From Acidobacteriota bacterium (lineage in GTDB: Bacteria; Acidobacteriota; Terriglobia; UBA7540), in NCBI GenBank assembly GCA_004298155.1, contig SCRD01000028.1, positions 186,001 through 250,000 of the forward strand: a stretch of DNA of 64,000 nucleotides, read 5' to 3'. This document shows, piece after piece, positions 22,554 to 25,135 of this stretch. Position numbers and translations under genes: made by a program. Under the pieces are notes generated by a model. That model was not told the origin of the DNA, did not search any database, and worked only from the letters and a program-made list of their open reading frames with translations. How positions within the stretch are numbered: the first letter of the stretch is position 1; each line of letters starts with the position of its first letter.

Positions 22554-23357
22554 ATGTCTATGGTTAAACGTCACCGGCCGAAGCTGGGGCAACACTTTCT
22601 CTCGGATCCTCGCTATTGCTCGCGTGTTACGGATGCGCTTGGGTTGAATACCGATGACCTCGTCATTGAAATTGGTCCGGGCCACGGAGCCGTGACGGGG
22701 TTGCTGGCCTCTCGCGCTCAGCGAGTTGTGGCAATTGAGATCGACCCTGAACTTGTGGATGAGCTTGGGCAGAAGTTCCGGCAATCGCCCAACGTGGAAA
22801 TTGTTCCCGGCGATGTTTTGTATACCGACCTGGGTGAAATTTGCCGTCGTCACAACGTGGAGCGGTGCTGCGTATTTGGCAATCTTCCTTACTACATTAC
22901 TTCCCCAATTATCCATCATGTGCTTGGATTTGCTGCGCGGGTTCGCGTCATAGGCTTGTTGGTCCAAAGAGAGGTTGCCGAACGGCTGGTGGCAAACCCG
23001 GGGTCGCGCGATTACGGTTATCTCACAGTCATCACACGCATGTATTCTTCCGCCCGCATGATTCTCGAGATTCCTCCCGGGGCTTTCGCCCCGCCGCCCA
23101 AGGTCCACTCAGCCTTTGTCCGGTTTGATATGGACGCAAGGAAACGAAGTATAAGTCCTGAAAACGAGCAGGAATTTCTCAGCTTCCTGAAACAGTCTTT
23201 TGCTTTCAAACGAAAGAAGCTTCTGAATTGTCTTGCTCCTATATCTTCACGGCAGAGAATTGAAGCAGAACTCGAGCGCCTTGCACTGCCCCTGAGTGTA
23301 CGGGCTGAACAGCTTTCGCTTGAGCAGTTCATCGCTATTTTTTTAAACCTTCGCTAG
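22554..23357 (+). CDS. rsmA: 16S rRNA dimethyladenosine transferase RsmA (KsgA)
   Basis: Dimethylates the two adjacent adenosines in the 3' hairpin of 16S rRNA late in small-subunit assembly. The 267-residue protein shows KLGQHFLSD at the N-terminus, the SAM-binding EIGPGHGAVT (39-48), EIDPEL, and the catalytic NLPYYIT (110-116). The C-terminal helical domain follows (FAFKRKKLLNCL). Two in-frame ATGs (22554, 22560) are possible starts. It is followed by the RNase J gene in the same direction. Confidence 0.96.
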   Translation: MSMVKRHRPKLGQHFLSDPRYCSRVTDALGLNTDDLVIEIGPGHGAVTGLLASRAQRVVAIEIDPELVDELGQKFRQSPNVEIVPGDVLYTDLGEICRRHNVERCCVFGNLPYYITSPIIHHVLGFAARVRVIGLLVQREVAERLVANPGSRDYGYLTVITRMYSSARMILEIPPGAFAPPPKVHSAFVRFDMDARKRSISPENEQEFLSFLKQSFAFKRKKLLNCLAPISSRQRIEAELERLALPLSVRAEQLSLEQFIAIFLNLR

Positions 23358-23461
23358 GGCAGGGAGTCACAATGGGCCTGGCCATTCCAGGCTTGCAGAT
23401 GTCGACTCTCTGGACTGCCGCAGCTATGATAAGATTCTGACGAATGTGAGGAGGAACTGAC

Positions 23462-25135
23462 ATCTCAAATTCTGATAATAAGTTACGAGCCATCCCCCTT
23501 GGGGGGCTCGGTGAGTTCGGCATGAACATGATGGTCTTCGAGTATGGCGATCATGCTGTGGTGGTTGACTGCGGCGTGATGTTCCCGGACTCCGAGCTGC
23601 CTGGTGTTGACATCATTGTTCCCGATATTACTTATCTCCGCCAGATCCAGGACCGGATCAGGGCCATTCTTCTTACCCACGGCCATGAAGACCACATCGG
23701 CGCACTGCCTTACGTGGTGGATGAAATCGATGCGCCCGTTTACGGAACTGCATTCACCCTCGAGCTGGCGAAGGCCAAACTGGTGGAGCACGGGCTGGAA
23801 GACAGCGTCGAGATGCGTGAGATGAAGCCTGCCGCCCCATTTGACATCGGGCCGTTCCACGTGGAGTTTATTCATCTTACCCACAGCATTATCGAGTCGG
23901 GTGCGTTGGCCATCACGACGCCTGCCGGGACCATCATCCATACAGGTGACTTCAAGTTCGATCCGACGCCCATGGACCAGCGCCAGAGCGACTTGCATAC
24001 CCTTGCGGATTATGGCCGCAAAGGGGTGCTGGCGCTGTTTTCGGACTCCACCAACGTCGAGCGTCCGGGCATCACACCCTCGGAACGCGCCGTCCGTGAG
24101 CGGCTTTCTGAAATTATGACGGCCGCCGAAGGGCGCGTGTTGATTACCTGCTTCTCAACTTCCGTCCACCGGCTGCAAATTGTGGCGGACCTCGCCCATG
24201 AACGCCGCCGCCGGCTCTGTTTTCTGGGGCGCAGCATGCTCCAGATTTCGGACATTGCCCAGAGGATGGGAAAACTCCGCCTCCCGCCGGGCCTGCTGGT
24301 TGAGCAACACGAACTCCGTAACCTCCCGCGATCCGACGTGGTCGTGGTGCTAACTGGAAGCCAGGGCGAACCGATGGCCGCGCTTCCACGGGTTGCAGTC
24401 AATCGCCACAAGTGGGCATCGGTTGAGCCGGGTGATGAAGTGGTTATCTCTGCCCGCGTGATTCCTGGCAACGAGAAGTCCATCTTCCGCATGATCGACC
24501 ATCTGTACCGCCGGGGAGCTCACATCCATTACGACGATGGCAGCCAGCCACCCGTCCATGTTTCCGGGCATGGAAGCGCAGAGGAATCCAGCCTGATGCT
24601 CAACCTGATTCGGCCACGATATTTTGTGCCGATCCACGGCGAATATCGCCAGCTTTTTCAACATGCAGAGGCGGCTAAACGGGTAGGCATCCCGCCCGAG
24701 AACGTCTTTCTGCTGGAAAGCGGCGATGTGCTGGAATTTTCTGGCGACGGGGCAAAGAAAGCTGATCGCGTTCCCGTGGGCCGCGTCTGTATTGATGTCG
24801 GGACACTGGATGAGGTGGACGACATCATCCTCAAGGAAAGGCGGCACATATCTGCAGACGGCATCGTTATTCCAATTCTTGCGATCAACGAACATACCGG
24901 GCAGCTGGAGGTGCCACCGGAAATCGTTTCACGCGGATTTATTCCTATGGATGAGGCGAAGGACCTGGTGGAAAGCGCGCGCCAGGTGATCTTCAAGACC
25001 ATTGAGGTTTCCAATGCGGAGGAGATTGCAGACTGGGGCGTCATCAAGGAGAAGATTCGGACGGCTTTGCGCCGCCATTTTGACCAGGAAACCGGCAAGC
25101 GCCCCATGGTTCTCCCTGTTGTGCTTGAGGTGTGA
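23462..25135 (+). CDS. rnj: Ribonuclease J with an apparent ATC start codon
   Basis: Metallo-beta-lactamase fold RNase with combined endo- and 5'-exonuclease activity in mRNA decay and rRNA maturation. The THGHEDHIG metal motif, GDFKFDPTP, SDSTN, the beta-CASP segment with STSVHRLQ, TGSQGEPMAAL, VSGHGSAEE and FVPIHGEYRQ are all present; the C-terminal domain is complete. The first ATG (23522) would remove the first conserved strand and loop, LRAIPLGGLGEFG, which is encoded in frame just before it. The only opening between the upstream stop (23447) and that block offers no ATG, GTG or TTG, but an ATC at 23462 lies seven bases after AGGAGG. I therefore set the start there (557 residues). Confidence 0.85.
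   Translation: MSNSDNKLRAIPLGGLGEFGMNMMVFEYGDHAVVVDCGVMFPDSELPGVDIIVPDITYLRQIQDRIRAILLTHGHEDHIGALPYVVDEIDAPVYGTAFTLELAKAKLVEHGLEDSVEMREMKPAAPFDIGPFHVEFIHLTHSIIESGALAITTPAGTIIHTGDFKFDPTPMDQRQSDLHTLADYGRKGVLALFSDSTNVERPGITPSERAVRERLSEIMTAAEGRVLITCFSTSVHRLQIVADLAHERRRRLCFLGRSMLQISDIAQRMGKLRLPPGLLVEQHELRNLPRSDVVVVLTGSQGEPMAALPRVAVNRHKWASVEPGDEVVISARVIPGNEKSIFRMIDHLYRRGAHIHYDDGSQPPVHVSGHGSAEESSLMLNLIRPRYFVPIHGEYRQLFQHAEAAKRVGIPPENVFLLESGDVLEFSGDGAKKADRVPVGRVCIDVGTLDEVDDIILKERRHISADGIVIPILAINEHTGQLEVPPEIVSRGFIPMDEAKDLVESARQVIFKTIEVSNAEEIADWGVIKEKIRTALRRHFDQETGKRPMVLPVVLEV

Follow-up and report, generated by a model that had tools for sequence, protein, structure and literature searches.

An AUU, AUC or AUA codon at the start of infC is the classical start controlled by initiation factor IF3, through which IF3 limits its own synthesis. 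To our knowledge, few genes besides infC keep a start other than AUG, GUG or UUG throughout a clade. The sigR gene of Streptomyces has a GTC start whose repression by IF3 was shown experimentally (PMC5472188), and infC (AUA), ccpN (AUA) and cvfC1 (AUU) of S. aureus are described with extended Shine-Dalgarno (SD) sequences (PMC13009471). In E. coli, pcnB encodes an RNA-decay enzyme whose translation is limited by an AUU start, as stated in the title of Binns and Masters (2002).

We analysed a window of 64,000 nt from an Acidobacteriota genome (contig SCRD01000028.1) that carries rnj, the gene for RNase J. Judging from the sequences of this genome and its relatives, translation of rnj almost certainly starts at an AUC or AUU codon. 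The arrangement resembles that of infC in that a near-cognate AUH codon stands behind an SD and is conserved across a clade, and AUC/AUU starts are found on both genes in the same family; the comparison with infC made in the sequence-only reading was thus an apt one. Unlike that of infC, the product of rnj is RNase J, so any control by IF3 would fall on another gene and would not be feedback. The likeness to pcnB lies in an RNA-decay enzyme with a limiting AUU start, but poly(A) polymerase is an unrelated protein from an unrelated clade. Like rnj, sigR is a gene other than infC with a conserved non-canonical start; it differs in its GTC codon, in encoding a sigma factor, and in that control by IF3 is experimental for sigR and deduced for rnj (PMC5472188). 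Conserved non-canonical starts with a strong SD are also shared by ccpN (AUA) and cvfC1 (AUU) of S. aureus, but these are other genes in another phylum, with starts mapped by ribosome profiling (PMC13009471).

The rnj locus and its start site

The rnj coding sequence occupies positions 23462-25135 of the forward strand (557 codons including the AUC). Its product matches TIGR00649 at 575 bits (cut-off 400) and the RNase J1 chain 3zq4_A at E 2.2e-142 (phmmer), and the beta-lactamase, beta-CASP, RMMBL and C-terminal domains are all over cut-off (PF00753, PF22505, PF07521 and PF17770, respectively); against the narrower RnjA model NF047419 it scores 599, below the cut-off of 820. By these matches, the product is RNase J, a beta-CASP metallo-beta-lactamase ribonuclease.

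Direct reading of the sequence shows a frame that is open from the ATC at 23462-23464 to the TGA at 25133-25135. The last in-frame stop ahead of rnj is the TGA at 23447-23449, and between this stop and the ATG at 23522-23524 the frame contains no ATG, GTG or TTG. An SD, AGGAGG (23449-23454), is spaced 7 nt from the ATC. The sequence-only reading had described this SD and its distance, which direct reading confirmed, and had placed the conserved N-terminal strand of RNase J upstream of the first ATG in a stretch lacking canonical codons; its coordinates proved right when the sequence was re-read. The ATG at 23522, the first canonical codon in frame, encodes residue 20 of the query protein, an internal Met rather than the start. 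It is preceded by a conserved block, LRAIPLGGLGEFG, that is common to relatives and in part to solved RNase J chains. For the 18 solved chains matched, the alignment begins at query residue 2-8, which is 12-18 residues ahead of the Met of ATG 23522; a start at this ATG would therefore, according to the alignment, delete a conserved stretch.

Translation from ATG 23522, or reinitiation or a frameshift from an ATG at 23444, is very improbable. What speaks for it is that ATG 23522 is conserved as Met within the motif GEFGM and that ATG 23444 overlaps the SD. However, the residues encoded ahead of 23522 form a block that is conserved among the loci read in the class and the phylum and can be aligned with solved RNase J chains, and ATG 23444 is missing in L003-L005. 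The latter ATG belongs to an ATG-TGA start-stop pair overlapping the SD (23444-23449, forward strand). That the pair exists, as had been pointed out earlier, is correct, but a role for it is not supported, as the pair is missing already in the closest relative (L003). Start-stop regulation was rejected because the pair does not occur in the nearest relatives, L003-L005, and it is probably incidental.

Upstream of rnj lies rsmA/ksgA, the 16S rRNA dimethyltransferase gene (22554-23357, forward strand; TIGR00755, 240 bits, cut-off 171), which is separated from the AUC by a gap of 104 nt. In a BLAST with the window's protein, 11 of 33 order loci, the window's own among them, have rsmA upstream of rnj in the same orientation. 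BLAST did not recognise rsmA upstream of rnj in the other 22 of the 33 loci, where the upstream DNA may sometimes be short, or divergence or another gene order may be the cause. To regard this neighbourhood as a tie to 16S maturation is speculation.

A putative extended -10 promoter element of rnj, TGATAAGAT (23427-23435, forward strand; motif TGNTANNWT), is located 26 nt before the ATC. The motif occurs no more than 60 nt upstream of AUU/AUC in 26 of 33 order loci, at distances of 21-34 nt; at 20-32 nt it is present in 23 of the 33 loci, compared with 6 of 1042 ORFs from the window's own genome. From its position we infer a transcript start near 23442 and a leader of ~20 nt. An RNA switch or an SD-sequestering hairpin in this leader was considered and rejected: a search of positions 23300-23800 against Rfam gave nothing at E ≤1, and no consistent RNA structure was found in four leader stretches cut by hand rather than at mapped transcript starts (z-scores -1.5, 0.17, 1.43 and 1.91).

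Start codons of rnj in the family, the order and the phylum

The family of the window's genome comprises 39 genomes. A match at E ≤1e-100 is missing in five, and the start was read in every one of the remaining 34. Behind an SD, rnj starts with ATT in 20 and ATC in 12, that is, in 32 of the 34 genomes, and the sole genome of the order's other family (G236, L062) has ATT. The two remaining family genomes, both of one genus (G014/L064 and G015/L061), have an ATG start without SD, 10 codons ahead of the block; L061 has a GTG as well. AUU/AUC is therefore dispensable in this genus, which has lost it.

The sequence-only reading had taken AUC as the start and had proposed aligning close relatives to see whether they have ATG here. 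The closest relative, with a 94% identical protein, keeps ATC/ATT behind an SD, which bears out the AUC start, and the wider alignment gave the same answer for all family genomes with rnj except the two of the one genus. Because relatives keep ATC/ATT behind an SD, it is very unlikely that position 23464 is a G or that translation begins at 23522. The probability of faulty sequencing or assembly, or of a pseudogene that has lost its start, is close to nil. The genomes of the family are drafts, and of its six named records five are titled MAG, which leaves some room for errors of this kind, but the same codon class with open frames recurs in 32 of 34 genomes, and the relatives thus already refute error and pseudogene alike. 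As read across these genomes, the AUU/AUC start of rnj is order-wide and not an error.

In the order as a whole, the AUU/AUC class with a properly spaced SD is kept in 33 of 35 loci. From the upstream stop to the conserved block, 18 of the 35 loci (the window included) have no canonical codon, while the nearest one lies at least 15 codons before the block in 11 (judged by distance, not by SD) and inside the N-terminus in 4 (L009-L011 and L023); the two ATG loci make up the rest. The distance from AUU/AUC to the block is exactly 7 codons in 30 of the 33 loci that have this start, and the SD match is at least 5 bases in 32 of these 33 and 4 bases in the remaining one. Where a second ATT/ATC occurs nearby (L006, L008, L015 and L029), the one with the better SD was chosen. 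Residue 2, directly after AUU/AUC, is Pro in 21, Ser in 11 and Thr in 1 of the 33 loci; all three allow removal of the initiator Met.

In a tree built from 31 proteins of the family and 21 of the outgroup (20 from family f2 and one from f3; long branches are flagged at L035 and L135), the family forms one clade (support 100/100). Six changes are needed to place all four labels (ATT, ATC, ATG and outgroup) on this tree. The ATC label alone needs four, three of them forced by well supported branches, which indicates that T and C at the third base were swapped a few times with the codon remaining AUU/AUC.

An RNase J match is present in 248 class genomes outside the order, of which we read 56, and in 106 genomes outside the class, of which we read 48. 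All 56 class loci have a canonical codon no more than 11 codons from the block, a count of available codons rather than proved starts, as the script chose among canonical codons only; its choices were ATG in 33, TTG in 19 and GTG in 4. A canonical codon also precedes the block in 47 of 48 loci outside the class (L239 is unreadable). A candidate AUH start at L241, an ATC behind AGGA, was rejected, as a GTG follows directly. Among five Desulfobacterales loci sampled from other phyla, L137-L140 have ATG or GTG close to the block. Given that a canonical codon is available elsewhere, the AUU/AUC start of rnj is a property of the order among the Acidobacteriota sampled. A literature search in the open-access subset found no earlier report of a non-canonical rnj start; gene finders restricted to ATG, GTG and TTG cannot put the start of the order's rnj at AUU/AUC.

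The rnj genes of family f2 carry the extended -10 element, in a slightly looser pattern, at 8-13 nt before the ATG in 19 of the 21 loci listed (L032-L052 in part, L083 and L084). An element so close to the ATG predicts a leaderless or near-leaderless rnj mRNA, and by its sequence the f2 transcript is probably leaderless.

infC and other weak starts in the same genomes

In a BLAST-based reading of 30 family loci, infC starts with ATC in 27 and with ATT in 2, and the one remaining locus is truncated by the end of its contig; in-frame canonical codons also occur further upstream in some of the 29. Our own reading of the other class families gave an AUH start of infC in 20 of 22 loci (L208 and L210 are unclear; in L202 and L212 an ATG follows a few codons later). 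With AUH starts of infC across the class, the IF3-controlled type of start looks old there, and rnj joined it in one order. The window's own genome encodes an IF3 with both domains (PF05198 and PF00707 over cut-off in infC) and has one ordinary initiator-type tRNA-Met(CAT). A dedicated initiator tRNA was rejected: the one anticodon-arm pattern used has 2 sites in the genome, which are, by ARAGORN, the ordinary tRNA-Met(CAT) and a non-tRNA.

The infC leaders of the family (up to 40 nt before the start; L101-L130) contain a short stem, rich in G+C, immediately 5' of the SD; a perfect stem of at least 4 pairs is present in 25 of 29 leaders (raw count). In this respect infC is unlike rnj, whose leaders show no consistent counterpart in the four folds made. 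A genome of family f73 (G253) has two IF3_N genes (C20:44504-44713 and C71:13143-13349), one of which scores like the divergent IF3 of family f3 and may reflect transfer or contamination.

We scanned 2.06 Mb (39.5%) of the window's own genome, with 1696 ORFs from a simple codon-usage caller, for further AUH starts. The scan deliberately included the infC region as a positive control, and it detects only AUH codons with a strong SD at least 8 codons before the first canonical codon. Among all 11,154 codons so placed there are 150 ATC; those standing behind an SD number 119 and include 4 ATC, 2 ATT, 1 ATA and 2 CTG. Relatives were compared for the ATC candidates, and rnj and infC are the only AUH starts of the scan that they back. 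A third ATC is codon 2 of ruvA (TIGR00084), for which the CTG before that ATC is the likelier start. The ATC at C1:233762, in a peptidase-like ORF, was also rejected, as none of 13 relatives has ATC/ATT at the corresponding position; its coding score is 0.26, compared with 0.15 for rnj. One ATA on C7 and two ATT on C8 have poor coding scores (0.01 to -0.39).

The ruvA gene (C6:27999-28652 of the same genome, equivalent to L182:7999-8652) starts CTG ATC TCA behind AAAGGAG. Its starts in 25 family loci (L266-L290) are CTG with SD in 13, ATG without SD in 8, GTG with SD in 2 and TTG in 2. The occurrence of CTG with SD in the same family means that a weak start with a strong SD is not confined to IF3-linked genes.

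Proposed control by IF3 and rival explanations

Our reading of the locus as a whole, to which we give a probability of about 0.65, is that start-codon discrimination by IF3 keeps translation of rnj low, that a strong SD compensates, and that the gene is transcribed from its own short-leader promoter. The ordinary initiator tRNA would start translation of the rnj mRNA, made from this promoter with a short leader, at AUC 23462. The near-cognate codon would expose the 30S complex to IF3 proofreading, causing a putative repression for which the strong SD makes up; when IF3 is scarce relative to 30S subunits, more IF3 and more RNase J would be made in parallel. Retention of the AUU/AUC class through the order's history would then amount to selection for low, IF3-sensitive synthesis of RNase J, a physiological purpose that we infer. 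Taken by itself, control of rnj by IF3 is somewhat more probable than its absence.

Stabilising selection on the expression level only is an alternative that we consider possible, at clearly less than even odds. The gene would need modest initiation, which an AUG could give with a weak or absent SD and a weak codon could give with a strong one; AUU/AUC would be one drifted solution, and IF3 would have no regulatory role. Consistent with such a trade-off, an SD of at least 5 bases occurs in 1 of 35 AUG rnj among class loci (33 outside the order plus the two family exceptions) vs. 32 of 33 AUU/AUC rnj, and loss of AUU/AUC in the one genus goes with absence of the SD (L061 and L064). The same relation of start and SD is seen, with CTG, in ruvA, and compensation between start codon and SD has been reported in general (PMC5622118). 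However, drift would be expected to reach UUG or GUG, as in other families, and 32 of 34 genomes remain AUU/AUC; elsewhere, switches to AUU are very rare, with 1 per 61,358 ancestral AUG starts and 1 per 5,080 GUG starts reported (PMC5622118). The trade-off is also imperfect, in that UUG rnj has an SD of at least 5 bases in 6 of 19 loci and none in 7 of 19, and GUG rnj has one of at least 5 bases in 0 of 4. Moreover, many AUG starts have no strong SD in any case: in the window's own genome, 240 of 964 ORFs with ATG as the first canonical codon have an SD of at least 5 bases. Both control by IF3 and the trade-off are compatible with the data, and the constancy of AUU/AUC favours control by IF3.

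A broader reading, which we regard as rather doubtful, has two rnj architectures under IF3 in the class, a leaderless AUG mRNA in f2 and AUU/AUC with a strong SD in the order. Leaderless mRNAs are reportedly inhibited by raised IF3, on mixed evidence (PMC9031893). Since leaderless mRNAs and AUU/AUC starts have both been reported as IF3-sensitive, the link between IF3 and rnj would be an old constraint whose parts were swapped. If two architectures do exist, 30S status would be tied through IF3 and rnj to RNA decay or 16S maturation, and the UUG families f72, f74, f75 and f77 would be an exception that needs explanation.

An AUC/AUU start common to an RNA-decay enzyme and IF3 suggests that RNA turnover is coupled directly to the level of the initiation factor, and the bacteria of this order may tie RNA decay to the state of the ribosome. 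RNase Y was not found over cut-off in the window's own genome; RNase E/G is over cut-off there, and RNase J is therefore not the sole decay nuclease.

In families f72, f74, f75 and f77 (L067-L070, L075-L077, L079, L085-L090, L093-L098 and L100), TTG is the apparent rnj start in 19 of 21 loci, a repeated use of weak starts within the class.
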